Positions 8,621 through 27,366 of a DNA stretch of 56,038 nt are shown piece after piece (within the stretch, counting starts at the first letter, position 1; every line of letters starts with the position of its first letter). Source of the DNA: a virus. The notes under the pieces are model-generated. The model worked only from the letters and a program-made list of their open reading frames with translations, searched no databases and was not told the DNA's origin. The DNA lies in the IMG/VR virus record IMGVR_UViG_3300044644_000597, positions 1 to 56,038 of that record. One strand, given 5' to 3'. The position numbers and the translations under genes were made by a program.

Positions 8621-8916
8621 ACCGAGCCCCGTTCCTTGAGAACGGCCATGCCGCAGTAGACGATTGCGCCCAGCACCTCTGATACGAAGGTGTCCCCCTC
8701 GCGGGTAGAGGCTGCTTCCTCGAGCTTCTTCGCCGCCTGGCCGGTGGCGAACCCGCGGCCGTGCAGCTTCACGTAGTGCGCCCACGGCTGCTCAAGGAAC
8801 GGCGTGACGTTGCCGCCATGCCGCTGGCCCTTGCCGTACATCGCCTGCTCGATGGCCGCGATGAACACGGGGTACAGCGGGTGCTCGAAGACCGCAGGAT
8901 CAAGCGGCTGCTGCAT
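8617..8916 (-). CDS. Conserved phage hypothetical protein
   Basis: The product is 99 aa from ATG 8916. Recognisable conserved stretches are FEHPLYPVFIAAIEQAMYGK, QRHGGNVTPFLEQPW and GFATGQAAKKLEEAAS. It looks like a soluble helical protein. The same motif order occurs in many phage early regions, but I know no assigned function. The start lies inside the end of the HTH gene (8900-9079), a 17-base overlap. Confidence 0.65.
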   Translation of the reverse strand: MQQPLDPAVFEHPLYPVFIAAIEQAMYGKGQRHGGNVTPFLEQPWAHYVKLHGRGFATGQAAKKLEEAASTREGDTFVSEVLGAIVYCGMAVLKERGSV

Positions 8917-9079
8917 CCTGGCCTCCGTACTGGTTGCGCAAGAACGAGTCCAGGTCTTCCTTGCGGAAGCGCCACTGGCGACCGATCTTTCCCGAGGGGA
9001 TGCGCTGATCACGCGCCAGTTTGCGCAGTGAGAACACGCTCACGCCGAGGTATTCGGCGGCTTCAAAAATCGACATCAT
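8900..9079 (-). CDS. xis: Excisionase-type helix-turn-helix protein
   Basis: The frame encodes 59 residues (58 from the second ATG at 9076). It has the DNA-binding pattern of the MerR-like excisionase family (HTH_17): SIFEAAEYLGVSVFSLRKLA, then RIPSGKIGRQWRFRKEDLDS and FLRN. Such proteins bind DNA as small winged helices, and many act as recombination directionality factors. The phage has an integrase at 5043-6134, so a directionality role is plausible, but a regulatory role is equally possible. It overlaps the nuclease gene upstream by 17 bases and the next gene by 17 bases. Confidence 0.75.
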   Translation of the reverse strand: MMSIFEAAEYLGVSVFSLRKLARDQRIPSGKIGRQWRFRKEDLDSFLRNQYGGQDAAAA

Positions 9080-16576: not shown

Positions 16577-16608
16577 AACCCCCGGCAACCCTGACCGGGG
16601 GTTTTTCT
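16577..16608 (+). terminator. Intrinsic terminator of the replication operon
   Basis: AACCCCCGG (16577-16585) pairs with CCGGGGGTT (16595-16603), and the T-run TTTTTCTTTT follows. It ends the rightward operon 48 bases after the resolvase-like gene, in the convergent gap. Confidence 0.9.
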
Positions 16609-16618
16609 TTTGTGGCTC

Positions 16619-16642
16619 GTGTAAATATCGACTTGGCGGCTG
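16619..16642 (-). promoter_or_regulatory. Promoter-like box, degenerate copy d
   Basis: On the minus strand this reads CCGCCAAGTCGA followed by TATTTACACGAG, matching the core of the boxes at 21813, 23792 and 24631. Like them it lies directly downstream of a UNCG terminator. No gene follows in the leftward direction; the next bases are the convergent terminator. It may therefore be a relic or make a short antisense RNA. Confidence 0.45.
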
Positions 16643-16644
16643 AG

Positions 16645-16676
16645 TCTGAAAAAAGAAATGGGGGCCGAAGCCCCCA
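16645..16676 (-). terminator. Terminator of the leftward accessory block (UUCG loop)
   Basis: On the minus strand TGGGGGC, loop TTCG, GCCCCCA (16676 to 16659) is followed by TTTCTTTTTTC. It lies just after the stop of the HTH gene 16681-17046, ending the leftward block before it meets the replication operon. Confidence 0.9.
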
Positions 16677-16680
16677 CTGG

Positions 16681-17046
16681 TCAGGCGAAGAAGTCTTTGA
16701 TCCGCTGCCACACGCCACGGCGTGGGCCAGCGATCAACTCGATGGGAGCCATTGGCGCAGGCTCGACCGGTGCGCTGATCTCGACAGGCTTGTCGACCTT
16801 CTTGACGCGAGGTCGGCGGATGACGCCCGTCTTGTTGATCTTCCCGGCCTGTGTGTAGTCATCGTAGCCTGGCCACAACCCGGCGTTGATGATCACGTTG
16901 TAGATGGTTGAGGGTGGACGCCGCATCGCATCGGCTATGTCCTTGACCTTGCCCTGCCCGCTGGTCCAGAGCTGGATGATGGTCATGCGCTCGGCTGGCG
17001 AGACGGCGCGATGAGTAACGCTGCGGCGTGATTTCTTTTCTGTCAT
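16681..17046 (-). CDS. Helix-turn-helix DNA-binding protein
   Basis: The product is 121 aa from ATG 17046. Residues about 15-60 (SPAERMTIIQLWTSGQGKVK, DIADAMRRPPSTIYNVI) form a Hin/Trp-repressor-like HTH, in which the second helix is typical of resolvase and transposase-type DNA binders. A Pro-rich linker and a short C-terminal helix (GVWQRIKDFF) follow. It may regulate transcription in the accessory block, whose last gene it is. It is the best candidate here for a small regulator but shows no repressor-specific domain. Confidence 0.7.
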   Translation of the reverse strand: MTEKKSRRSVTHRAVSPAERMTIIQLWTSGQGKVKDIADAMRRPPSTIYNVIINAGLWPGYDDYTQAGKINKTGVIRRPRVKKVDKPVEISAPVEPAPMAPIELIAGPRRGVWQRIKDFFA

Positions 17047-17246
17047 AGGTTGAATGTCTTCTTGAGGTAAGACTCCATGTTTCGCTTCCACCTTGCATCG
17101 CTTGGCGAGACGGGGAAGATCACGTTCTTGATGATGTCGTCCTTGCGGACGGATGCCTTGATGTGTCCGCCTGATTGATTGGTGGACTCGAGCCGAAGCC
17201 CGAGCCCCCTGATCAGACGCCTTATCTCGAGATGGTGGCGGTCCAC
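17043..17246 (-). CDS. Small hypothetical protein, HicA-like fold possible
   Basis: The product is 67 aa, with IRRLIRGLGLRLESTNQSGG and then HIKASVRK. The position of GGHIK after an N-terminal helix recalls the small dsRBD-like fold of HicA toxins, but the catalytic His context (GSHH) is absent and no HicB partner is adjacent. I treat it as an unknown phage protein. Its ends overlap both neighbours. Confidence 0.55.
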   Translation of the reverse strand: MDRHHLEIRRLIRGLGLRLESTNQSGGHIKASVRKDDIIKNVIFPVSPSDARWKRNMESYLKKTFNL

Positions 17247-17491
17247 TCCTTTCCTTTCTTGTAGGTGATCTCCTCCGGTGGGTAGCCATCGGGGTACACG
17301 ATGTACCCGAAGCTGTTGATGGTCGTCTCTGGGTGAACCAGGAACGACATCATCACCGGCGAGCTGGTCATGCGCTTGATGCGCTGGGTTGCTTCCTCAA
17401 GGTTGGCACCACGCGCACGCGAGCCATCCTTGCAGACAAGCAGGTACTCCAGCTCAACGCGCTTACTTGCTACTGCCTTGATTGCTGACAT
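17222..17491 (-). CDS. Hypothetical protein
   Basis: The product is 89 aa with alternating strand and helix (VELEYLLVCKDGSRARGANL, SFGYIVYPDGYPPEEITYKK). No motif was recognised. It overlaps the next gene by 25 bases and the previous one by 29 bases, which is unusually deep for this operon. Confidence 0.55.
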   Translation of the reverse strand: MSAIKAVASKRVELEYLLVCKDGSRARGANLEEATQRIKRMTSSPVMMSFLVHPETTINSFGYIVYPDGYPPEEITYKKGKEWTATISR

Positions 17492-17654
17492 CGTTGACTG
17501 TCTGGATGAGGGTTGAGAGTTCGGTGTGTACGGTGTTTGGGATCAGGTCAATTTCCTTCATGTCGTTGATTGCCATATTGATTTGAAGAAGACGGAACAC
17601 GTCTGTCGACGCGTCCGTGATCTCGAGCTTTACGTGTTGCTTCCAGTCGTCCAT
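17463..17654 (-). CDS. Small hypothetical protein
   Basis: The product is 63 aa, acidic, and predicted helical in the middle (FRLLQINMAINDMKEIDLIP). AAGGGGGA precedes ATG 17654 at a good distance. It is the first gene after the amidotransferase stop, 14 bases away. No family was recognised. Confidence 0.6.
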   Translation of the reverse strand: MDDWKQHVKLEITDASTDVFRLLQINMAINDMKEIDLIPNTVHTELSTLIQTVNDVSNQGSSK

Positions 17655-17668
17655 CGTCCCCCTTCCGC

Positions 17669-18655
17669 TCAGTCGATGAGGTTTGGGGAGATCGAGTCGG
17701 ACTGGAACAGGTCAGCGATCCACTCGGCTGCGGTCTCAGGGAAGTCCTCGACCATGTCGAACACATCGTCGACGTCGTCGTACCAGTACGACAGCAGAGC
17801 CGCCGCCTTGTGCGGTGCGTCGAACACCCACTGCTCAACACCTTCTACGCCGCGGCGCGACCACTGATTGAACGCAGCCTTGACGTACGGACGAACCTGC
17901 GCAGCCGTGAGGGTGGTGAGCTCGTGCTTGGCATCCGACTTGTCGTTGACGTACGAGCCCTTGGCCACTGTCGTCTTGTCCTTGAAGTTGGTGCCGTAGC
18001 TCGAGTACATGTTGTCGTAGTAATCGTCGCCGTCTGCCCAGTGCGAACGACTGCCACCGTACCCGCTGTACATGTTGGTGTAGCCGCCGTTGTTGGTGAA
18101 CTTGTAGTACGACCAGGCGTACGTATTCGACAGCCAGGCGTTCTCGTAGTTGACGCCAGCGCTGGCGTTGATGACCACGATCTCACCATCGTTGCGCACC
18201 AGTGCGAACTTGTTGCTGCGGCCGATGATCTCGCCGACGAACTTCTGCCACTCGGGATCAGTCAGCAGCTCTGGGTTGCCGATCAACGCTGGGCGGATGA
18301 AGTTCTTGATGAAGTGCCAGGTGTCCGACTTGGTCTTGTCGGCGGCGTTGCCTGTCGACAGGATGCCGTTGTGCGCGAGCCAGACGTCGCTTGTCACCAT
18401 GTAGGGGTGGCAGTTGTCGAAGTCGATGTCGCCGTGCGTCTGCATGCGTGCGTGCCACACACAGCTCTTGCCCTCGGCGTGTGCGCGGTAGAAGCCGATG
18501 AACTCCTGAGCGTTGGCGGGCAGGCACTTGAAGATGTGCAGCTTGTCATCCTCGGCGTACATCACACCCAGGCCATCCTGGTTCTTGTTGAAGACGTCGG
18601 CGAGGAACTCGTCGGTGAAGTTGGAGCTCGTGGTCTGCTGGACTAATAGGCACAT
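17669..18655 (-). CDS. Class II glutamine amidotransferase (Ntn hydrolase)
   Basis: The product is 328 aa from ATG 18655, with AAGGA upstream. After Met removal Cys2 (MCLLVQQ) would be the N-terminal nucleophile. The GATase II core follows: DGLG (27-30), WHARMQTHGD (67-76), HPY (83-85) and LAHNG (93-97). The family releases ammonia from glutamine or cleaves gamma-glutamyl amides. The C-terminal 150 residues contain a Tyr/Gly/Asp-rich region (YTNMYSGYGGSRSHWADGDD) that I do not recognise. No synthetase domain is fused. Instead an amidoligase gene lies 29 bases upstream, a pairing known from comparative genomics in phages. The pair probably makes or trims an amide bond on a peptide. The substrate is unknown. 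Confidence 0.85.
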   Translation of the reverse strand: MCLLVQQTTSSNFTDEFLADVFNKNQDGLGVMYAEDDKLHIFKCLPANAQEFIGFYRAHAEGKSCVWHARMQTHGDIDFDNCHPYMVTSDVWLAHNGILSTGNAADKTKSDTWHFIKNFIRPALIGNPELLTDPEWQKFVGEIIGRSNKFALVRNDGEIVVINASAGVNYENAWLSNTYAWSYYKFTNNGGYTNMYSGYGGSRSHWADGDDYYDNMYSSYGTNFKDKTTVAKGSYVNDKSDAKHELTTLTAAQVRPYVKAAFNQWSRRGVEGVEQWVFDAPHKAAALLSYWYDDVDDVFDMVEDFPETAAEWIADLFQSDSISPNLID

Positions 18656-18684
18656 TTTGTTGATCCTTGGTGATTGATGTTTGA

Positions 18685-20043
18685 TTAAGCTGCTTCGAGA
18701 CGCTGTGCCAGGTAGGGGCGCAGGAACTCGGTCTCGTTCGACTCGTCGCTGTTGATGAACTCGAGGAACTTGTCCGCCTTGAGGTCTTTGATTGAGGTCT
18801 TGGCCAGGCCGCAGAAGTCGACGACTGCGTTCGAGAACTCGATCGCTGCCATGACTGACTCGTACTTCAAGCTGCCCTTGAAGATGCGGAACTCGATCGT
18901 CTTGCGAGAGGTGATGTTCACCGCCTCGTAGCGATCCTCCGAATGCGCAGCAGCGCCGATCTTCTTGTGCTTGATCCTGCAATAGCCCTCGGCGTACCGA
19001 CGTGCGACTGCGCGGATCAACTGCTCGTTGTCTACGTCGTTGACGAACGTGACGATCTTGGCGATCTGAAGCTTCGACAGGTTCTGCTTGCTGACGTGAA
19101 CGTGCAGGCCGCAGGTTGTCGTGTTGTGCGAGCGAAGATGCTTGACCAGGCTGCGGTCATTGAGCCAAGCCCACAGCTCACGATGCTTGTCGAGACCCAT
19201 CGGCTGGCTGATGATCTCGAAGCCGTGGCTGATCGAGCCATCGTTCTCGAAGAACACACGCTTGCCGAACTCGCCGTCGTTGACGTGCTCGAAGATTTCC
19301 TTGGCTTTGGTGGCGCGGTCTGCGCGATCGGCCATCACCTCGACCTCGAGCTCGACACCCAGGTAGCGCTTCTTCAGCTTGGTCCACTCGCTTGGCTGCT
19401 CGCGTTGCGAGTGCTTGCTGCTGTGGTAGTTGCCGATGATCCTGGATGCAGGGTCGTAGTCGTCGTGAACCCAAGTGTCTTCGTCGTCGTTGTAGGTGAA
19501 GTCGCTGTCATCGCTGGAGATCGTGCAGCTATGGCCGTTCTCATCGAGCGCAGTCCTTGCGTCTTCGCCGTAGACGTACGAATCGTAACGGTCCGACCAC
19601 TGGTAGTCGTTGTCGATGCAGTTGCGGCAGATTGATGCTTCGTCGTTGTTGTAGTAACAGCGTGCGTGATCTTCCAGCTCCCATTCACCGCAGTCGTCGC
19701 AGCGAACCAATCCCTTCTTGCGCTCGAGGTAGTCAATGATGTCGTCGTAGTCGTCGGCATCGCTGTACGAGTTGAGCCAGTCGCGCAGCCCGTACATCGA
19801 CATTTCACTCAGGTACTTGTTGCGCAGCTCGAGGCGCATGCGAAGCATGTGGTGGCCGTCGTCATCTTCACTCATGAATGTGCAGACGGTGTTGCCGACG
19901 TGACGCGGGAACTGGTCGAGGATTGAGAGCAGGCTGCTGACGTCGCCGCCATCTCTTGCGCGATCTGCGATGCGCTTTGCAAAGGCGGCGTGCTCGACGT
20001 GAGTCCCGCTCATAAGCCGAAGGAGGTATGCGTTCGGTTTCAT
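18685..20043 (-). CDS. Amidoligase (COOH-NH2 ligase family)
   Basis: The product is 452 aa, preceded by GGAG ten bases before ATG 20043. Residues 1-110 are helical, and a zinc ribbon follows (CDDC 115-118, CRNC 139-142). An acidic low-complexity stretch leads to the amidoligase core: YLGVELEVEV (227-236), NDGSISHGFEIISQPMG (267-283), CGLHVHVS (311-318) and TIEFRIFKG (382-390). These are the ATP and metal-binding motifs of the family, which is related to glutamine synthetase and glutamate-cysteine ligase. It should form an amide between a carboxylate and an amine, using ATP. The adjacent GATase II (17669-18655) is its expected partner. Targets might be cell-wall peptides or proteins; this is inference. 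Confidence 0.85.
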   Translation of the reverse strand: MKPNAYLLRLMSGTHVEHAAFAKRIADRARDGGDVSSLLSILDQFPRHVGNTVCTFMSEDDDGHHMLRMRLELRNKYLSEMSMYGLRDWLNSYSDADDYDDIIDYLERKKGLVRCDDCGEWELEDHARCYYNNDEASICRNCIDNDYQWSDRYDSYVYGEDARTALDENGHSCTISSDDSDFTYNDDEDTWVHDDYDPASRIIGNYHSSKHSQREQPSEWTKLKKRYLGVELEVEVMADRADRATKAKEIFEHVNDGEFGKRVFFENDGSISHGFEIISQPMGLDKHRELWAWLNDRSLVKHLRSHNTTTCGLHVHVSKQNLSKLQIAKIVTFVNDVDNEQLIRAVARRYAEGYCRIKHKKIGAAAHSEDRYEAVNITSRKTIEFRIFKGSLKYESVMAAIEFSNAVVDFCGLAKTSIKDLKADKFLEFINSDESNETEFLRPYLAQRLEAA

Positions 20044-20060
20044 TTGATCTCCGAATAGAA

Positions 20061-20086
20061 ATGAAAAAGCCCGCCATAAGGCGGGC
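20061..20086 (-). terminator. Terminator upstream of the amidoligase gene
   Basis: On the minus strand GCCCGCC, loop TTAT, GGCGGGC (20086 to 20069) is followed by TTTTTCATTTC. It lies between the gene ending at 20168 and the amidoligase start at 20043, so the amidoligase pair needs read-through or a promoter inside or very close to this hairpin. Confidence 0.85.
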
Positions 20087-20132
20087 CAAGGTCACGTTCA
20101 AATAGGGTTTACATACAAACAGCAAGAGAGGA

Positions 20133-20154
20133 TTCCCCTCCCCAAAGAGGGGAA
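20133..20154 (-). ncRNA. Leader hairpin A of a three-member family
   Basis: On the + strand TTCCCCTC, loop CCCAAA, GAGGGGAA is followed by AGACA at the stem's end. The same design, with different stem bases, recurs at 25190-25214 and 25683-25707. It lies 90 bases before the amidoligase start, ahead of the terminator. The coding strand of the RNA is taken as minus from the gene direction, which is an inference. Confidence 0.55.
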
Positions 20155-20167
20155 GACACTCCCTGAA

Positions 20168-20644
20168 TCAAGCTGGCGCTGGAATCCTCCTGGCTTTCTT
20201 CTTCCTGATCTGATCCCACACGTAGTCGAGCGCACCCTCCATCTCTGCAACCGTGCAGATGTCGAGCTGTGCGTCGTGAATTTCCATTGTCAGGTTGATG
20301 GCGCTGAGCTCGGGGCCTGTCGCTACGAACCTCCCGATCCCTACTGACCTGACGCCGAGGCTGTAGATGGCGTCTTGCCCAGCCTTGATCTCGGCTCTGA
20401 AGTCATCGCCGATGTTCTTGATAGCCAGCGCCTCGGTGACGTTGAACGCCTGGATCAGGATGTCCACGTCGTCCTTGTCTGCCTGGCCAAGACGCAGCTT
20501 GTCGATGGCGTTGTGGTTCTTGATGCGCGTGTCGAGGATGATGCCGCCGCCGCCCACTTCAGCAGCCTTGAGCATGCCGCTCTTGATCCACGCCATCGTG
20601 TCCAGTCTCACGCCCTTTGGTTTGTACTTTGACTTCTTCCTCAT
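20168..20644 (-). CDS. Conserved phage protein of unknown function
   Basis: The product is 158 aa from ATG 20644, which overlaps the upstream stop by four bases. The start KKSKYKPKGVRLDTMAWIKS and the middle IKNHNAIDKLRLGQADKDDV, then DILIQAFNVTEALA, match a family I have seen in prophages of betaproteobacteria, without any assigned role. It is soluble and largely helical with a basic tail. It is the last gene before the amidoligase leader. Confidence 0.7.
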   Translation of the reverse strand: MRKKSKYKPKGVRLDTMAWIKSGMLKAAEVGGGGIILDTRIKNHNAIDKLRLGQADKDDVDILIQAFNVTEALAIKNIGDDFRAEIKAGQDAIYSLGVRSVGIGRFVATGPELSAINLTMEIHDAQLDICTVAEMEGALDYVWDQIRKKKARRIPAPA

Positions 20645-21036
20645 GCTTGCTTTCCGAATAGCGCCGCCGTCAGTGGGTCGCGCTGTGGTTTCTTCTTGGT
20701 CCAGTAGTAAGCCCTGCTCTTGGCAAGCAGGTCTTCCCATCCGCCGTCCTTCTTGAGCCGACGTCGATACCGCTTGACTCGATCGGCATCGGTGGTCAGC
20801 TTCGGCATCTTGATCGTGTGCTTCGCTGGCGCTGGGCCAGGGTGATACACATGAATCATTGGTCCGCCGTGAGGGTTGACCTCCATGTGATGCACATGAA
20901 TGTCGCCAGCGTCGAGCAGGTCTTTGAGCCACCTGTGTGTGGTGGCCAGACTCAACTGTGTGCGCTGCCTCACGTCGGCGTTGCTGCCTGGCAGTGCGGC
21001 CAGCACATTGTCCCGGTTCGCACGCTTACGAGCCAT
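20641..21036 (-). CDS. Winged-helix DNA-binding protein
   Basis: The product is 131 aa from ATG 21036. Residues 5-70 read as a winged HTH: NRDNVLAALPGSNADVRQRT, QLSLATTHRWLKDLLDAGDI, then a wing HVHHMEVNPHGGPMIHVYHP. A basic region with RVKRYRRRLKKDGG follows. It is probably a transcription regulator. Its position ahead of the amidoligase pair makes it a candidate regulator of that pair. Confidence 0.7.
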   Translation of the reverse strand: MARKRANRDNVLAALPGSNADVRQRTQLSLATTHRWLKDLLDAGDIHVHHMEVNPHGGPMIHVYHPGPAPAKHTIKMPKLTTDADRVKRYRRRLKKDGGWEDLLAKSRAYYWTKKKPQRDPLTAALFGKQA

Positions 21037-21283
21037 TCTTCTCCTTGAGTTTGGCTTCGATGGCTCTGGCAACATCACGCAACAACATAGCTGGCACATA
21101 AGGGCCATCGCCAAAGAGTTTGTCTATCTCCTCATCAGTCAGCCCAACCCATTGCCGCTGTGCTGCGGGTGGGGTGGTGTAGAGCATCCCGGTAAACCCC
21201 TTCGGCAAGTTTGACCTGGCAATCTCCCCTTGGTAGATGACAAGCGCTGGCTCCTGCACAGGCACTGCTTTGTCTTTGGTCAT
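21026..21283 (-). CDS. Hypothetical protein
   Basis: The product is 85 aa from ATG 21283. It contains QRQWVGLTDEEIDKLF, a stretch very common in otherwise variable phage accessory proteins, and a C-terminal helix AMLLRDVARAIEAKLKEK. The function is unknown. It overlaps the winged-helix gene by 11 bases and the previous gene by four. Confidence 0.65.
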   Translation of the reverse strand: MTKDKAVPVQEPALVIYQGEIARSNLPKGFTGMLYTTPPAAQRQWVGLTDEEIDKLFGDGPYVPAMLLRDVARAIEAKLKEKNGS

Positions 21284-21468
21284 AGAAGTCTTTCTCCTTT
21301 GATGGCTCGGCACTGCGCACGCATCTCAGGCGTGAAGTCAGGGCTGATCTCTGCGATTGAACAGTTGATGCGCTTGACCTTCGGCGCACTGTGGTGCGCC
21401 AGGTATATCCCGAAGGAACACAGCGACACGTACGTCACGGCGAACAGGATGACGACTGGCCTGGTCAT
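21280..21468 (-). CDS. Small membrane-anchored periplasmic protein
   Basis: The product is 62 aa. Residues 4-24 (PVVILFAVTYVSLCSFGIYL) form a signal anchor, after which the polar part contains two Cys (INCSIAEISPDFTPEMRAQC) that could pair in the periplasm. This short protein type recurs in phages of Gram-negative hosts, with no known function. It is coupled by ATGA to both neighbours. Confidence 0.65.
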   Translation of the reverse strand: MTRPVVILFAVTYVSLCSFGIYLAHHSAPKVKRINCSIAEISPDFTPEMRAQCRAIKGERLL

Positions 21469-21644
21469 TTGTCCTCGCCCACGATCGGGATGTAGGAGCA
21501 GCGCTCATCATTCGATGACTCCGCTGTGTTGAATGGCGTGCGCTCACCCCATGTCTGATCAGGGTGATCTGCCCACCGCTTGCAGTTCTTGCAGTAGGTA
21601 TCGACCAGCTCAGGCTTGCATCGGCTGTAGTCATACGGAAGCAT
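21465..21644 (-). CDS. Small Cys-rich protein
   Basis: The product is 59 aa from ATG 21644, chosen because AAGGAGG lies six bases upstream (a GTG at 21650 is the alternative). Four Cys (SRCK, TYCKNC, RCSY) suggest a small zinc-binding knuckle. The function is unknown. It overlaps the next gene upstream (21631-21801) by 14 bases. Confidence 0.6.
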   Translation of the reverse strand: MLPYDYSRCKPELVDTYCKNCKRWADHPDQTWGERTPFNTAESSNDERCSYIPIVGEDK

Positions 21645-21801
21645 GGCCACCTCCTTTGTTTACGTGCTTGGCCAGCAGCCACTTGTCGCCAAGCAGTCGC
21701 ACCTGTCTCACCCACTGGCGTTGATACGAACGGTTGTGCTCGCGTGGTATGTGCTCTGAACAGAACAGGTGGCGTACGATCTTTAGTGCTCTGGTGTTCA
21801 T
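21631..21801 (-). CDS. Small basic protein (56 aa)
   Basis: The frame from ATG 21801 encodes 56 residues, basic and helical (ALKIVRHLFCSEHIPREHNR, SYQRQWVRQVRLLGDKWLLA). AAAGGA precedes the start at a good distance, directly after promoter-like box c (21813-21837). The pattern QRQWVRxVRxLG with a WLLA end recurs, as I remember, in phages of Burkholderiales. The function is unknown. Confidence 0.6.
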   Translation of the reverse strand: MNTRALKIVRHLFCSEHIPREHNRSYQRQWVRQVRLLGDKWLLAKHVNKGGGHASV

Positions 21802-21812
21802 CGTTGTCCTTT

Positions 21813-21837
21813 GATGTAAATATTGAAGCGGGAGTTG
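21813..21837 (-). promoter_or_regulatory. Promoter-like box, copy c
   Basis: On the minus strand it reads CAACTCCCGCTTCAA then TATTTACATC, followed by AAAGGA and ATG 21801. It matches the boxes at 23792 and 24631 in nearly every position and sits just after a UUCG terminator. If it is a promoter, the 5' leader would be about 15 bases. Confidence 0.6.
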
Positions 21838-21850
21838 CCTTTGAATAGCA

Positions 21851-21870
21851 AACGCCCCCGAAGGGGCGTT
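21851..21870 (-). terminator. Terminator hairpin (UUCG loop)
   Basis: On the minus strand AACGCCCC, loop TTCG, GGGGCGTT. The T-run after it is weak (TTGCTATTC), while the + side reads GTTGTTGTTT. It lies after the stop of 21889-22275 and before promoter-like box c. Confidence 0.75.
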
Positions 21871-21888
21871 GTTGTTTATCGCTGGTGA

Positions 21889-22275
21889 TTACCACCAACT
21901 GTCGTAGATCACCGCCTTGCCGTTGGCTATTGCAAGCCTGGCCTTCGATACGAACTCGAGTACCTCTTGCGTAGCCTCGGGGGTCATCTCATCCTCGTCA
22001 CCCCAGAAGAACCCGGATGCGGGCTTGAGTGTCTTGGCCTCAGCCTCCAGGCGATCGAGGTCTTCACGCATGAGCCTGACCGTGTCGCAGTTGAAGCTAC
22101 TGCTCTGTCCTCCCTTCTTGAAGTACAGGTCTGCCATCCACTGATGCAGGTTGTTGAACTTGCGCCAGTAGGCAAACTTCTTGTCCAGCTCCTTGATCTT
22201 CTCGAGGTCGATGTCGACCTGCTTGTCACCGATTTGCTCCTGGTCGCATGTGAATGCGTACATATCAAGACCCAC
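21889..22275 (-). CDS. Conserved phage protein (MGLDMYAF family)
   Basis: The product is 128 aa from GTG 22275, giving MGLDMYAFTC. AAGGAG lies seven bases upstream, which decides for GTG over ATG 22263. Families starting MGLDMY are widespread in phages and bacteria, with no known role. The body has WRKFNNLHQWMADLYFKKGG and ends with a strand AIANGKAVIYDSWW. It overlaps the next gene by 11 bases. Confidence 0.7.
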   Translation of the reverse strand: MGLDMYAFTCDQEQIGDKQVDIDLEKIKELDKKFAYWRKFNNLHQWMADLYFKKGGQSSSFNCDTVRLMREDLDRLEAEAKTLKPASGFFWGDEDEMTPEATQEVLEFVSKARLAIANGKAVIYDSWW

Positions 22276-22510
22276 GACGTTCTCCTTGTGCGTTGATGAT
22301 TCGTTGTGAAGACATGAGCTTGAGCTCAAGGCTTCGCTTGTCCTTGGTCAGTTGCTTGACCTGGTCCTCGAGGTCGATAAGCCTGAGCCTCATGTACTCG
22401 AGCTGCATCGCCTGCGCATGGATCGCTTCCGTCTTCATGCGCTCGATGGACTTGGCCGCTTTCTCAGCCTGCGTGAGCGGCTTCTGCGCCTCGCCCTTTG
22501 GTATTTCCAT
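22265..22510 (-). CDS. Coiled-coil hypothetical protein
   Basis: The product is 81 aa from ATG 22510. Almost the whole length is heptad-like helix (AEKAAKSIERMKTEAIHAQA, RLRLIDLEDQVKQLTKDKRS). It may self-associate or bind another helical protein. There is no known family. Confidence 0.6.
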   Translation of the reverse strand: MEIPKGEAQKPLTQAEKAAKSIERMKTEAIHAQAMQLEYMRLRLIDLEDQVKQLTKDKRSLELKLMSSQRIINAQGERRGS

Positions 22511-22775
22511 TGGTTGATTCCTCCAGTAGTTCGATTGCCTCGAGCAGGTAGTTGCGAGCGGCGTCGATGTCGGGCTGCTCCTCAAACAAATGCTCGGTGC
22601 TTGTCGCAAGCCAGTCGTTCAGCAGGAACTCGGACTTGCGCACCAGGTCCAGCACCTGGTTGACCTCGGCGTGTGCCATGCGCATGACCTCTGCCGCCTG
22701 GTCGAGATCGCCGTAGGTACAAGTGCGTCGGTCGATGAGCTCAGACAGCTCGTAGAGTTTCTTCATCCTGCCCAT
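22464..22775 (-). CDS. Hypothetical helical protein
   Basis: The product is 103 aa from ATG 22775 (ATG 22766 is possible). It is helical (YGDLDQAAEVMRMAHAEVNQ, DAARNYLLEAIELLEESTNG). Its 3' end overlaps the coiled-coil gene by 47 bases in another frame. No family was recognised. Confidence 0.55.
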   Translation of the reverse strand: MGRMKKLYELSELIDRRTCTYGDLDQAAEVMRMAHAEVNQVLDLVRKSEFLLNDWLATSTEHLFEEQPDIDAARNYLLEAIELLEESTNGNTKGRGAEAAHAG

Positions 22776-22776
22776 G

Positions 22777-22920
22777 TCACACCTCGATCATTGGTGCGAT
22801 CCACCAGTCGTACTCACGGGCGACATGCTCGTCAGCCCATGCGTTGGCAGCGTCTGGGTTACCGAACGTGCCTGCGTATGTGAACCCATCGTTTGGGTTG
22901 CCATAAACAACGATCCACAT
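22777..22920 (-). CDS. Small hypothetical protein (47 aa)
   Basis: The frame from ATG 22920 encodes 47 residues with strongly patterned aromatic content (MWIVVYGNPNDGFTYAGTFG, ADEHVAREYDWWIAPMIEV), as in a small compact domain. It starts one base before the stop of the DUF6876-like gene and ends one base before the next start. Tight spacing supports it. Confidence 0.6.
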   Translation of the reverse strand: MWIVVYGNPNDGFTYAGTFGNPDAANAWADEHVAREYDWWIAPMIEV

Positions 22921-22921
22921 G

Positions 22922-23290
22922 TCAGTACTCCGAAGTGAGCATGAGCACGCCGCTCTGAAGGAAGAAGCGCCAGTCTCCTTTCGGGCAGTCGGTGAACGAG
23001 ACTCGCCTAGCCCACAGCTCGCTGTCGTTGCCATCGGTGACGACGATGTCGCACGACTCATTGGCGTGAACCCGCAGGTCAACGGTCATGAACCGGTGCT
23101 TGCGAGCCAGTGGTTGCAGCTCGGTGCCGATGATGTCGAGCAGCCAGTAAGCGCCGCCGCCTGCATTGGTGGCGAAGTACTTGACGCCGTCCGTGTATTT
23201 CATCCACTGGTACAACGGGTTGAAGTGGTACTGCTCAGTGCCGATGAACTGCTCGAGCTCTTGCTGAAGGGTGATGGTGTCGGTGGTCAT
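22922..23290 (-). CDS. DUF6876-like protein
   Basis: The product is 122 aa from ATG 23290. It has the order expected of the DUF6876 family: ELEQFIGTEQYHFNPLYQ, YTDGVKYFATNAGGGAYWLL, a middle VTDGNDSELWAR, then FTDCPKGDWRFFLQSGVLML and the terminal TSEY. The family is common in plasmids and phages and its function is unknown. It overlaps the zinc-ribbon gene by four bases. Confidence 0.75.
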   Translation of the reverse strand: MTTDTITLQQELEQFIGTEQYHFNPLYQWMKYTDGVKYFATNAGGGAYWLLDIIGTELQPLARKHRFMTVDLRVHANESCDIVVTDGNDSELWARRVSFTDCPKGDWRFFLQSGVLMLTSEY

Positions 23291-23490
23291 GCTTGCTCCT
23301 GATTCCCGTAGTTTTGAAGTTGATCGTGTTGTCCTCGCCAGTCGCACTCAAGGCACCTGGACGGCGAGTCGCTGTCTTGAACCTTCACGCTGTGGCAGTA
23401 GTGCTCAAGCGTGTTCGCCATGAATGTCTGGATGTGGGCCAGCGTCACACGGTCGCTGTTGCACTCTGGGCACTGGAGGGTCGTGGTCAT
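23287..23490 (-). CDS. Small zinc-ribbon protein
   Basis: The product is 67 aa from ATG 23490. CPEC near the N-terminus and CLEC near the C-terminus (RCLECDWRGQ) form a zinc ribbon with a Trp-containing knuckle like those of RNA-polymerase-associated factors. Its partner is unknown. It is coupled to both neighbours by ATGA. Confidence 0.65.
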   Translation of the reverse strand: MTTTLQCPECNSDRVTLAHIQTFMANTLEHYCHSVKVQDSDSPSRCLECDWRGQHDQLQNYGNQEQA

Positions 23491-23780
23491 GCCGCCTCCT
23501 TCATCTGGCCAGGCATCGCTTCGATCTTGGTGAGCAGCGCTTCGACCTGATCCCAGGTCAATCGGCCGATGACGTCGTCGGTTATCTCGGTCGTGTAGTC
23601 CAGATCGAAGTCGCCCCATTGGTCGCCCGTGAACACGACAACGGCCAGCTCCCACAGCCCTTGCTCTGAGCCGTAGCTGAATTCGTGCCGAATAACGCTG
23701 GCTCCTCGCCCATTGGCGAAGCGGTAGACCTTCTGGGTTCCGTTGAACTTGTTGGATTCATGAATTGGCTGATGAGTCAT
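23487..23780 (-). CDS. Hypothetical protein
   Basis: The product is 97 aa, preceded by AAGGAG at ideal spacing from ATG 23780. It is strand-rich (YRFANGRGASVIRHEFSYGS, LWELAVVVFTG) with a C-terminal helical part DDVIGRLTWDQVEALL. It is the first gene after promoter-like box b. The function is unknown. Confidence 0.65.
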   Translation of the reverse strand: MTHQPIHESNKFNGTQKVYRFANGRGASVIRHEFSYGSEQGLWELAVVVFTGDQWGDFDLDYTTEITDDVIGRLTWDQVEALLTKIEAMPGQMKEAA

Positions 23781-23791
23781 GCCTGCTCCTT

Positions 23792-23815
23792 GTGTAAATA
23801 TTGAATCGGGAGTGG
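23792..23815 (-). promoter_or_regulatory. Promoter-like box, copy b
   Basis: On the minus strand CCACTCCCGATTCAA then TATTTACAC, followed directly by AAGGAG and ATG 23780. This is the clearest copy. It follows the UUCG terminator at 23831-23848. Confidence 0.65.
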
Positions 23816-23830
23816 TTCTGGAAAAGAAAA

Positions 23831-23848
23831 AGGGAGCCGAAGCTCCCT
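23831..23848 (-). terminator. Intrinsic terminator (UUCG loop)
   Basis: On the minus strand AGGGAGC, loop TTCG, GCTCCCT is followed by TTTTCTTTTCC. It ends the transcript of 23851-24614, and promoter-like box b begins 16 bases later. Confidence 0.9.
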
Positions 23849-23850
23849 TG

Positions 23851-24003
23851 TCATGGGGTTAATCCCCGTTCTGAAAGTAACGCTCTTGCTATGAGCGCGA
23901 ACGATCTTCGTCTGGCCAGCGATTCCTTGGCGTACACGTTGCGCAGTTGCGCATCAGTACAGAGCTCGCAGTACCGTCTGAATTCCGACTCGCTTCGGCT
24001 CAT
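23851..24003 (-). CDS. Small basic protein (50 aa)
   Basis: The frame encodes 50 residues, basic and helical (RRYCELCTDAQLRNVYAKES, LARRRSFALIARALL). The ATG at 24003 overlaps the upstream stop by four bases, and the stop TGA sits two bases before the terminator stem. Position and coupling support it. The function is unknown. Confidence 0.55.
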   Translation of the reverse strand: MSRSESEFRRYCELCTDAQLRNVYAKESLARRRSFALIARALLSERGLTP

Positions 24004-24614
24004 CGCGCGTCGAGGATGGCGACGACCTGGGTCAGCGTGTCTTGCAACTCGGCGATCTTGGCCTTGATCTTGACCGACTCGGTCTTGACCAGCCCCAGGT
24101 CAGCAATCTCAAGCTCGATATTCTTGATGGTGCCGATGAGCTGCTCGTCGCTGAGTGCTCTCACGTCGGCGTTGTTGATGTAGGTGATGTTCTTGATTTC
24201 GATGGAAGGCATAGGGTTCTCCTGGATAGGTTGGGTTTCTGGTTGGCCATTGATGGCCTCGGGGGTTGCGGGATTGGTGCCCATCACTCGGCTGGCAAGC
24301 CAGCCAAAGCCGTGGCTGTGTGCATAGCTGATGTGCTTGCAGAAGATGTCGTCGTTGACAAACCTGGCGCGGACCATCTCTTTGCTCAGCATGTACTCGA
24401 GCACCATCAGCCTGATGTAGACCTTGTGGTTCAGGTCGAGGTCGTCAAGCTTGTGCCTCTTGCGCAGGATGTCTGCGAAGTCATCCACCCTCGTGACGAA
24501 CGGCTTGAAGTTGCGGTCATTAAGCACAGCCTGAAGGTTGTTGTGCCAAGTGCCGTCATTGACGATCGCCAGGTAGTACTGGTCGTGAACGTATTGAAAG
24601 TCAGGTGCAGTCAT
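24000..24614 (-). CDS. Hypothetical protein with C-terminal coiled coil
   Basis: The product is 204 aa. Residues 1-110 are a mixed globular part (YVHDQYYLAIVNDGTWHNNL, LMVLEYMLSKEMVRARFVND). A Pro/Gln linker leads to a C-terminal part starting MPSIEIKNITYINNADVR and ending in a coiled coil. The second part could once have been a separate gene. AGAGGA lies nine bases before ATG 24614, but a five-codon frame, ATG 24618 to TGA, uses the same site with better spacing and overlaps this start, so it may reduce translation. Confidence 0.6.
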   Translation of the reverse strand: MTAPDFQYVHDQYYLAIVNDGTWHNNLQAVLNDRNFKPFVTRVDDFADILRKRHKLDDLDLNHKVYIRLMVLEYMLSKEMVRARFVNDDIFCKHISYAHSHGFGWLASRVMGTNPATPEAINGQPETQPIQENPMPSIEIKNITYINNADVRALSDEQLIGTIKNIELEIADLGLVKTESVKIKAKIAELQDTLTQVVAILDAR

Positions 24615-24630
24615 TCATCGGTGTCCTCTC

Positions 24631-24653
24631 GTGTAAATACTGGATTGGGAGTA
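24631..24653 (-). promoter_or_regulatory. Promoter-like box, copy a
   Basis: On the minus strand CTACTCCCAATCCAG then TATTTACAC, followed by GAGAGGA and the start at 24614. It differs from copy b at only a few positions. It follows a terminator with a UACG loop at 24673-24692. Confidence 0.6.
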
Positions 24654-24661
24654 GCTCTTTG

Positions 24662-24692
24662 AAAAAGAAAAAGGGGTGACCGTAGCCACCCC
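24662..24692 (-). terminator. Intrinsic terminator (UACG loop)
   Basis: On the minus strand GGGGTGGC, loop TACG, GTCACCCC with one mismatch is followed by TTTTTCTTTTTC. It ends the transcript of 24700-25137. TACG belongs to the same UNCG tetraloop class as the other three cassettes. Confidence 0.85.
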
Positions 24693-24699
24693 CTTTGTC

Positions 24700-25137
24700 T
24701 TACATCGGCGCTTCTTCAGCGACGGGCATCTGGTTCACCACACGGCGCTCGACAGCCATCGGCTTGGCCAAGCGTTCCATGCAGGTTGCCATCAGCATTT
24801 TGACGGCGCTGTCAACGTCGTCCTGAGTCTTGCTGTCGTCCAGCATGGCTCGCTGGATTGCTTGCACGCACTCCAGAATCTTGACCTGGGTCATCGCCTC
24901 GCGAATGCCAGCGCCAGGCAATTCCTTGCCGCACCAGCCCAGGCCAACGCCCATCATGTAGGCAGCGCCTAGAACATTGTCGGGAGCAGGAGCGGTTTCC
25001 TGCTTGGCGATCTCGACGGCGATCATCTGGCTTGCTTCCTCGCGGGTAGCAGGGCATTGCAGTTGACGCTTGGCGAACCACTCGAGCTGCTTGGGAGTGG
25101 GAGCGTTGGCGTTCAAAGATTTGGTGGTGAAAAACAT
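24700..25137 (-). CDS. Hypothetical protein
   Basis: The product is 145 aa with AAAGGAA before ATG 25137. It is mainly helical. The middle, NVLGAAYMMGVGLGWCGKEL, is small-residue rich and ends GAGIREAMTQVKILECVQAI. Hydrophobicity is too low for a clear membrane segment. The function is unknown. Leader hairpin B lies 53 bases upstream, so this gene may have a regulated leader. Confidence 0.6.
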   Translation of the reverse strand: MFFTTKSLNANAPTPKQLEWFAKRQLQCPATREEASQMIAVEIAKQETAPAPDNVLGAAYMMGVGLGWCGKELPGAGIREAMTQVKILECVQAIQRAMLDDSKTQDDVDSAVKMLMATCMERLAKPMAVERRVVNQMPVAEEAPM

Positions 25138-25189
25138 GATGAGGTTCCTTTACAAAGGGTTGAGAACAAAAAACACAAGAGAAAGCTGG

Positions 25190-25214
25190 CTGGCTCTCTC
25201 CGCAGGAGAGCCAG
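25190..25214 (-). ncRNA. Leader hairpin B of a three-member family
   Basis: On the + strand CTGGCTCTC, loop TCCGCAG, GAGAGCCAG, with AGACA formed at the stem's end. It has the same geometry as hairpins A and C with different stem bases. It lies in the 5' leader of 24700-25137, in a 120-base gap with no other gene. Confidence 0.55.
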
Positions 25215-25577: not shown

Positions 25578-26057
25578 GGTGATTTGCTTTTTAAATCAAG
25601 GGGTTAGGGGTTTGGGATATAAGGAAACACATACAAGAGTCGTTTCCTACAGATCAAAACCCATATAAACAACTCAAGTTGGCTACCTTTCTCCCAAAGA
25701 AAGGTAGACAACGGACTCAAAAAGTACACAGACGGTAGGTAACCCATTGAAATACCTAGGGTTACTACGGACTATGGATCAGGAAGGGACGGTGGTGAGC
25801 TGGAGGGGGTGGCCTAGTGGACACCGTGGGGTATACCGGGGGGTATGAGGACTCCAGCACGTATAGGATCACTCGTGCGAGTCTTACCCTGGGGTGTGAA
25901 CTGAACTCACACCCTATCCAGGACGCTTATTTAGGCCGTTGGCTGCGTCAAAACGGGTTGGTTGGTACTACCCCCCTACCGGACCCAGAAAAAAGCTTAT
26001 GGGGGGCCTTAAGGAACCCCGGTCAGAATGTTTTTTTCACAACAACCGGAGAAAGAC
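25578..26057. promoter_or_regulatory. Non-coding control region between the accessory and late blocks
   Basis: This gap separates divergent transcription units. It contains leader hairpin C (25683-25707), a bulged stem GACTC-ca-GCACG / CGTGCGAGTC (25850-25883) and an eight-pair hairpin GGGTGTGA/TCACACCC (25892-25914). A frame at 25817-26074 has poor protein character and no ribosome binding site, so I do not call it. Leftward promoters for the accessory block and a rightward promoter for 26058 are expected here. Confidence 0.6.
25683..25707 (-). ncRNA. Leader hairpin C of a three-member family
   Basis: On the + strand CTACCTTTC, loop TCCCAAA, GAAAGGTAG, with AGACA at the end of the stem. It lies about 105 bases before the first small gene of the leftward block. 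Its loop is nearly identical to that of hairpin A (CCCAAA), while the stems share no sequence. Confidence 0.55.
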
Positions 26058-26330
26058 ATGCTGACAGCCGTTGAGATGCAGGGTTTCCTGCGACAGTTCG
26101 AGCCGTTGAGGGAAGTTTGCGTGGATGAGACGACTCAATTCGTCTATGCGCCGTGGCATGTGAAGCTTCACGGGACCGTTTTGGTCTACGGTGAGCCTCA
26201 TGCCTTCGAGTCAGAGCTCGATCTGCGTGAGTTCGGGGGTCAAGACGACCTGATGAAGCTGGCCAAGCAGCTCCTGCTGGCCTTTGCTGGCGCAGCCGAA
26301 CACGTCAAGCGCGGTCAAATTCCGGTTTGA
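26058..26330 (+). CDS. Hypothetical protein
   Basis: The product is 90 aa from ATG 26058, preceded by GGAG. It has a mixed fold (MQGFLRQFEPLREVCVDETT, VKLHGTVLVYGEPHAFESEL, LMKLAKQLLLAFAGAAEHVK). No family was recognised. It is the first rightward gene after the control region and lies before a palindrome-rich gap, so it may be regulatory or early. Confidence 0.65.
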   Translation: MLTAVEMQGFLRQFEPLREVCVDETTQFVYAPWHVKLHGTVLVYGEPHAFESELDLREFGGQDDLMKLAKQLLLAFAGAAEHVKRGQIPV

Positions 26331-26793: not shown

Positions 26794-26869
26794 CTGGGTG
26801 TAGCTCAGAAGGTAGAGCACGCGCTTTGGGAGCGTGAGGCCGCAGGTTCGATCCCTGTCACCCAGACCA
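26794..26869 (+). tRNA. tRNA-Pro (anticodon UGG)
   Basis: The acceptor arms CTGGGTG and CACCCAG pair fully. The D arm, an anticodon loop with TGG, a T arm with GGTTCGATCC, discriminator A and encoded CCA are all present in 76 bases. It is the first of six tRNAs in front of the terminase genes. Confidence 0.95.
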
Positions 26870-26923
26870 ATTCAAACTCTTGGCGTAGTACGACATCCTC
26901 GTCGTATTGACACCCCCGCTCAT

Positions 26924-27010
26924 GGGGGTGCGGCGCAGATGGTGAGGCGCGGCGGACTGTAAACCCGTTGACCAAGAGTCGAGAAGGTTCAAATCCTTCC
27001 ACCCCCACCA
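26924..27010 (+). tRNA. tRNA-Tyr (anticodon GUA)
   Basis: The acceptor arms GGGGGTG and CACCCCC pair. The anticodon loop reads CTGTAAA with anticodon GTA. A long variable arm, as expected of bacterial tRNA-Tyr, is followed by a T arm with GGTTCAAATCC and an encoded CCA. The length is 87 bases. Confidence 0.93.
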
Positions 27011-27028
27011 TCATCCCCCTGAAGATTT

Positions 27029-27104
27029 TGTCCGGTAGCTCAGTCGGTAGAGCGCCGCCCTGTTAAGGCGGTGTGCGTAGGTTCGATGCCTACCCGGACA
27101 GCCA
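27029..27104 (+). tRNA. tRNA-Asn (anticodon GUU)
   Basis: The acceptor arms TGTCCGG and CCGGACA pair in all seven positions. The anticodon loop is CTGTTAA, the T arm has GGTTCGATGCC, and discriminator G and encoded CCA complete 76 bases. This intact gene differs in stem sequence from the tRNA-Asn fragment that forms attP. Confidence 0.95.
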
Positions 27105-27107
27105 CAT

Positions 27108-27181
27108 GTGCCCCTGGTGTAACGGCAGCACGGCGGTCTCCAAAACCGCTGGTCAAGGTTCGAGTCCTTGGGGGTATGCCA
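27108..27181 (+). tRNA. tRNA-Trp (anticodon CCA)
   Basis: The anticodon stem GCGGT/ACCGC encloses loop CTCCAAA, anticodon CCA. The acceptor stem GTGCCCC/GGGGTAT contains two G-U pairs. The D arm, T arm (GGTTCGAGTCC) and encoded CCA are present. The wobble-rich acceptor makes the exact 5' end slightly uncertain. Confidence 0.85.
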
Positions 27182-27185
27182 ATTC

Positions 27186-27271
27186 GGAGCCTGGCGTGCA
27201 GGGCACAAACGGGGCTTGAACCCCCGGCCACTTGGCGACAGGTGAGGGTTCGATTCCTTCAGGCTCCGCCA
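27186..27271 (+). tRNA. tRNA-Ser-like (anticodon UGA), odd D arm
   Basis: The acceptor arms GGAGCCT and AGGCTCC pair fully. The anticodon stem CGGGG/CCCCG encloses CTTGAAC (anticodon TGA). There is a long variable arm, a T arm GAGGG TTCGATT CCTTC and CCA. The D arm is GTGC-AGG-GCAC, with only a three-base loop and without the usual GG-containing D loop. It may be functional but unusual, or modified. Confidence 0.8.
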
Positions 27272-27278
27272 CAACCAC

Positions 27279-27366
27279 GGAAGGTTGGCCGAGAGGTTAA
27301 GGCAGCGGCTTGCTAAGCCGTCATCGGGAAACCGGTGCGCTGGTTCGATTCCAGCACCTTCCGCCA
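27279..27366 (+). tRNA. tRNA-Ser (anticodon GCU)
   Basis: The acceptor arms GGAAGGT and ACCTTCC pair. The D arm is normal, the anticodon loop is CTTGCTAAG with GCT, the variable arm is long (CATCGGGAAACCGGTG), and discriminator G and encoded CCA complete 88 bases. Confidence 0.95.

Follow-up and report, generated by a model that had tools for sequence, protein, structure and literature searches.

How phages take up new genes while leaving the expression of those they already carry undisturbed is the question raised by a short cassette, comprising a terminator hairpin and a conserved box, that recurs in an uncultured phage genome. The genome was analysed as a 56-kb virus record (hereafter the window, i.e., the whole stretch of 56,038 nucleotides), which encodes a tyrosine integrase, an exonuclease, an Erf-type annealing protein and a primase/helicase. 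Its phage group is a little-known family of uncultured podophage relatives; the named relatives of its terminase are BcepC6B-like and other podophages with ≤ 47% identity. A host and prophage search of genome contigs gave weak terminase relatives only, such as a Limnohabitans MAG contig at 64%. All boxes of the window lie in a leftward block (25137 to 16681) of small genes without known function, an amidoligase gene and a class-II glutamine amidotransferase-like gene, and this block converges on the rightward replication operon. Six tRNAs are located at 26794–27366. The gene for a giant LPD38 protein is split across both contig ends (51547–56037 and 2–4402), apparently cut by contig linearisation, and a near-terminal repeat common to both ends (around 86 and 55839) makes a circular or circularly permuted genome probable.

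The initial annotation described one design at four places of the leftward block, namely a hairpin with a TTCG or TACG loop followed by a box containing CTCCC, TTCAA and a core, with a ribosome site and start codon behind three of the four. The full design (UNCG hairpin, gap of 16–17 nt, 24-nt box, ribosome site and ATG) was found at three minus-strand copies, with boxes beginning at 24651, 23812 and 21834 (cassettes A, B and C; Table 1). The 20-mer CTCCCNNTTCAATATTTACA, allowing up to three mismatches, matched the window at 24651–24632, 23812–23793 and 21834–21815, and three matches were reached by none of 100 dinucleotide shuffles (mean of 0.01). The description did not hold for the fourth copy (16639–16616, CCGCCAAGTCGATATTTACACGAG), in which the core TCGATATTTACAC is present but both CTCCC and TTCAA are missing. 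The core alone occurred five times in the window versus 1.56 expected, which is not significant; the fourth copy was accepted as real because it lies 17 nt behind a hairpin and because the same gene-less site is kept in nine relatives. All four hairpins were present with the loops described (three TTCG and one TACG) and folded well, at −13.9 to −21.1 kcal/mol (z = −3.6 to −5.7). Four of the five strong minus-strand terminators in the block carry a box, the one without being that before the amidoligase gene (20086).

Table 1. Positions of the cassette elements and adjacent genes in the window.
Feature	Position	Strand	Remarks
Cassette A, terminator hairpin	24669–24696	−	TACG loop, then T-run
Cassette A, box	24628–24651	−	CTCCCAATCCAGTATTTACACGAG; 17 nt behind hairpin
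Gene behind cassette A	24000–24614	−	204 aa; no known function
Gene before cassette A	24700–25137	−	145 aa; without own box; consistently next to the first cassette, on its upstream side, in relatives
Cassette B, terminator hairpin	23830–23849	−	AAGGGAGC-TTCG-GCTCCCTT
Cassette B, box	23789–23812	−	CTCCCGATTCAATATTTACACAAG; ATG at 23780
Cassette B, entire	23768–23859	−	92-bp island; 95% identity to relative G004
Cassette C, terminator hairpin	21851–21870	−	AACGCCCC-TTCG-GGGGCGTT
Cassette C, box	21811–21834	−	CTCCCGCTTCAATATTTACATCAA; ATG at 21801
Terminal cassette, terminator hairpin	16657–16678	−	final terminator of leftward block; TTCG loop
Terminal cassette, box	16616–16639	−	CCGCCAAGTCGATATTTACACGAG; core kept, without CTCCC; no gene behind
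Convergent terminator of rightward operon	16579–16601	+	directly past terminal box

Several other features were observed in and around the block. The gene behind cassette A begins with ATGAATG (24618–24604, minus strand); an out-of-frame ORF of five codons overlaps this start, and this type of overlap was also found in the homologues from G006, G011 and G012. The leaders of the first gene (25137–25210) and the amidoligase gene (20043–20172), both on the minus strand, have no box; each instead has a strong hairpin with a run rich in pyrimidines (CTCCGCTTTTC-like) behind it, and this arrangement is repeated in relatives. At the amidoligase gene, the terminator (20086–20069) lies directly before the ribosome site with no promoter between them, which looks like an attenuation arrangement, and a sub-threshold Trp_leader match (E = 0.012) covers this terminator. 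Additionally, a conserved GC-rich non-coding block at 25900–26030, upstream of the gene at 26028–26330 (ttggctgcgtttt...tacccccc...gggggcc...aaggaaccccggt), is kept in relatives and is possibly a structured RNA, a packaging site or a replication site.

When 2.9 million viral contigs were scanned for the exact pattern, three relatives were recovered together with two AT-rich contigs, the latter of which look like chance matches, and many more relatives were obtained by terminase-based retrieval. A weight matrix, i.e., the motif model that the initial annotation had proposed to build, revealed enrichment of the box before genes in 19 related podophage contigs, with 57 sites at ≥ 12 bits versus 1–3 in reversed controls, counts that are only partly controlled for relatedness, the relatives all being uncultured contigs and several of them near-duplicates. 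A lack of such enrichment, which the initial annotation had set as a refuting outcome, was therefore not observed. Additional sites were found in further loci, and a few matches of low score in the region of the terminase small subunit appear to be coding sequence. The consensus, CTCMCnnYTCRATnTYTACACG, is ungapped. Each genome carries 2–5 boxes, all within one block and in one orientation relative to transcription. The box was confined to contigs with a terminase approximately 80% identical or more; more distant terminase relatives had no box above chance when scanned, and a search of named phages for the cassette gave generic terminator matches only.

Hairpin sequences vary among the relatives, with loops of TTCG, TACG, GCAA, GAAA, CACGC and others, and yet the box keeps a spacing of 16–20 nt from these differing hairpins at 33 of 43 sites. 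A hairpin of ≥ 7 bp lies upstream of the box at 34 of 36 sites, compared with 17% of random positions, and the first ATG or GTG follows 28–38 nt from the box start at 25 of 26 gene-start sites. The exceptions were a box without a hairpin (L031:1347), a 36-nt gap between hairpin and box (G012), a box that precedes the next gene's terminator instead of following it (G010) and an ATG inside the box at position 20 (G017), the last being expected if transcription starts there. Within orthologous cassettes, conservation is highest at box positions 1–5 and in the core, and different lineages retain the core and CTCMC although their hairpins and flanks have diverged. The fixed spacing may partly be inherited from one ancestral cassette.

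The position of the box limits what it can do. Since the distance from terminator to ATG is only about 60 nt, there is no other room for a promoter of the downstream gene, and it would fall to the box to initiate or license its expression. No sigma-70 promoter was found at the boxes, in line with the poor sigma-70 match already recognised in the window. The T7-type RNA polymerase domain PF00940 was absent in seven genomes (T7 positive control, 1e-109), a scan for the motif-B pattern of such polymerases found none, the giant LPD38 protein gave no match to T7-type RNA polymerase, and no sigma factor domain was found in the phage. These results favour a factor-dependent promoter. We propose, with a probability of roughly 45%, that the cassette is a portable transcription-unit boundary that joins a terminator to a putative factor-dependent promoter and doubles as a recombination handle. 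The hairpin and T-run would stop the incoming leftward transcript, and the box would be recognised by a sequence-specific factor, probably one encoded by the phage. With its CTCMC half, the box could then act as a factor-dependent promoter for the host RNA polymerase, with a start near its 3′ end yielding an mRNA whose very short leader holds the ribosome site. The gene-less terminal box and the G010 box that precedes a terminator count against this promoter reading, as does the fact that the searches for a sigma-70-like site, a T7-type polymerase and a sigma domain left the box with no identified reader.

The tight distance between box and ATG, together with a ribosome site immediately following the box, would also suit an element acting in RNA, i.e., a start-associated leader controlling how the downstream gene is translated, as has been suggested for the SAS elements of cluster K mycobacteriophages (PMC3203893). 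We consider this explanation decidedly improbable: the terminal box has no gene to control, yet its core co-varies with the other boxes; pairing between the box flanks (CTC with GAG, GGGC with GCCC) was at chance level, no more than with shuffled partners; and an Rfam search found no RNA family at the cassettes.

A terminal box stands behind the last terminator of the block in 10 genomes (the window and nine relatives), where it is followed by the convergent terminator only. These boxes keep TCRATnTTTACACG, and GC-rich letters replace CTCM. Their cores differ from the gene-start cores of their own genome by 1.8 mismatches and from those of other genomes by 3.5 (P = 5e-5), and a strict test on six distinct lineages only gave an exact P of 2/720. 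Lineage variants of the box include CAATATTTACACG and CAATCATTCCACG, and examples of the within-genome agreement are CAATCATTCCACG in G013 and G022, ...TTTACAGA in G010 and CAATCACTACACG in G015. Because all boxes of one genome vary together, a trans-acting, lineage-specific factor is likely, which agrees with the earlier suggestion that the box may need a phage-encoded activator; such co-variation is the likely outcome of co-evolution with one trans-acting, probably phage-encoded factor. Concerted copying is another possible reason for the likeness of boxes within a genome, but it is less likely for the terminal box, whose flanks differ.

The conserved gene-less copy is not explained by a plain promoter reading. 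It suits the main rival to that reading, in which the box would serve as a stoperator-like roadblock or repressor operator: a bound phage repressor would halt the polymerase at the terminator T-run, thereby silencing or insulating the block in the lysogen, and the genes behind the box would be read by read-through or antitermination once the repressor is gone. The single orientation, the lineage-specific variants common to all copies, the fixed distance to the hairpin and the presence of an integrase gene point the same way, and termination approximately 8 nt behind the hairpin would bring the box core near the front edge of the polymerase. However, an operator leaves unexplained why the CTCMC half occurs at gene-start copies only and why the start codon lies at a fixed distance. 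Moreover, there are only 2–5 sites per genome in one block, and no repressor was identified. We regard an operator as rather unlikely. If the box is instead a factor-dependent promoter, the terminal copy, with the core and without CTCMC or a gene, would presumably be bound by the factor without starting a gene and could act as an insulator between the convergent operons.

Candidate readers of the box were sought among the phage proteins. The two HTH proteins first named as possible activators are unlikely, as both are absent from many relatives that carry the box: the protein at 16681–17046, which had a sub-threshold Pfam match only, has no match in G009, G010, G013, G015, G016 and G022, and that at 20641–21036, which had no Pfam match, has none in G006, G008–G010, G013–G016 and G022. 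The product of the gene at 24700–25137 is predicted to be helical, and it was rejected because it does not diverge in step with the box. Another candidate, an excisionase-type HTH protein of 59 aa (8900–9079, minus strand), is present in the complete relatives checked; it was also rejected, its recognition helix being almost unchanged while the box varies and the protein occurring in the box-less G019 as well. None of the conserved proteins compared with the box tracked it specifically, and no gene stood out as its partner. More tentatively than the boundary role itself, we suggest that the box might represent a phage promoter class not described before, i.e., an ungapped element of 22–24 bp that is used by the host RNA polymerase with a co-evolving phage factor and is coupled to a terminator at a fixed distance, each cassette thereby insulating and starting one exchangeable gene and the same factor sealing the convergent end.

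Gene exchange was evident at the cassettes. The first cassette always lies behind the family of the gene at 24700–25137, and at least nine unrelated gene families follow it. The family of the window gene at 22922–23290 occupies different places: it follows cassette A in G007, cassette B in both G006 and G012, and the first cassette in G013 and G022. The window and G004, which are near-identical genomes, share 23859–23768 at 95% identity over 92 bp with unrelated DNA on both sides, the cassette forming an island of homology between unrelated genes. In G007, a hybrid cassette has the hairpin side of G006 cassette A and, switching over within the box, the gene side of G006 cassette B. These exchanges might be taken to mean that the cassettes are shared recombination handles (boundary repeats) only and that the box has no regulatory use. 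This seems very improbable, as homology alone requires neither the retention of the core and CTCMC despite diverged hairpins and flanks nor the coherent variation of the box within each genome. As a transcription-unit boundary, each cassette would stop the preceding transcript and start the following one, so genes could be gained, lost and exchanged between cassettes without disturbing their neighbours. The shared cassette of approximately 90 bp, together with the exonuclease and the Erf-type annealing protein, could provide the homology for such exchange.

Apart from the cassettes, the segment 21036–21184, inside the gene at 21026–21283, is 93% identical to G011:38959–39091, where it is out of order, and has a 57-bp match to the Manatee Spring phage MW202867; it is presumably another small mobile segment.

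In near-identical genomes, the cassette reveals where genes can be plugged in and which scars their exchange leaves, and the co-variation of its box predicts that a DNA-binding factor exists, along with a start signal other than sigma-70. It could also serve as a handle for finding accessory genes, e.g., those for defence or counter-defence, in uncultured podophages.

Among known systems, the moron modules of lambdoid phages are genes with their own promoter and terminator inserted between phage genes. Morons use host sigma-70 promoters and are not known to share a single conserved cassette sequence across sites, whereas the present cassette is conserved across sites and is not sigma-70-like. 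The stoperators of cluster A mycobacteriophages are asymmetric 13-bp sites with variants that track the cognate repressor (PMC6550527, PMC9283540). Asymmetry, one orientation and genome-specific variants were likewise found here; however, stoperators occur in many copies genome-wide, whereas the boxes are longer, number 2–5 per genome within one block and are each coupled to a terminator and, in most cases, a start codon. The SAS of cluster K mycobacteriophages is a 13-bp sequence, GGGATAGGAGCCC, that includes the Shine-Dalgarno sequence and occurs 11–19 times per genome, and the ESAS adds SigA-like −35/−10 hexamers and inverted repeats (PMC3203893, PMC11373665). As with the present box, these repeats are short and asymmetric, stand immediately upstream of the start codon at some of the genes and are mostly in one orientation, and gene 91 of Adephagia even has the order terminator-like stem, ESAS promoter and SAS (PMC11373665). 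In contrast, the box lacks GGGATAGGAGCCC, the hexamers and the inverted repeats, has far fewer copies, and is followed by the ribosome site rather than containing it. The present cassette would work in the manner of the PeSL (promoter early stem-loop) cassettes, in which, however, the early promoter is host-like (sigma-70) and which are found in virulent T4-type myophages. As described for T4-like phages (Arbiol 2010 and Comeau 2014, as cited in PMC4503421), a PeSL combines an intergenic terminator hairpin with an early promoter, is repeated at gene borders and is tied to gene shuffling. Hairpins directly before the putative start signal at gene borders (34 of 36 sites) and gene shuffling between relatives were both found here. 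The box differs in being ungapped, unlike sigma-70 promoters, and variable from genome to genome in concert, and its carriers are integrase-bearing phages whose terminase relatives are podophages rather than T4-type phages. Because it departs from defining features of PeSLs, SAS/ESAS and stoperators alike, we file the cassette apart from all three.
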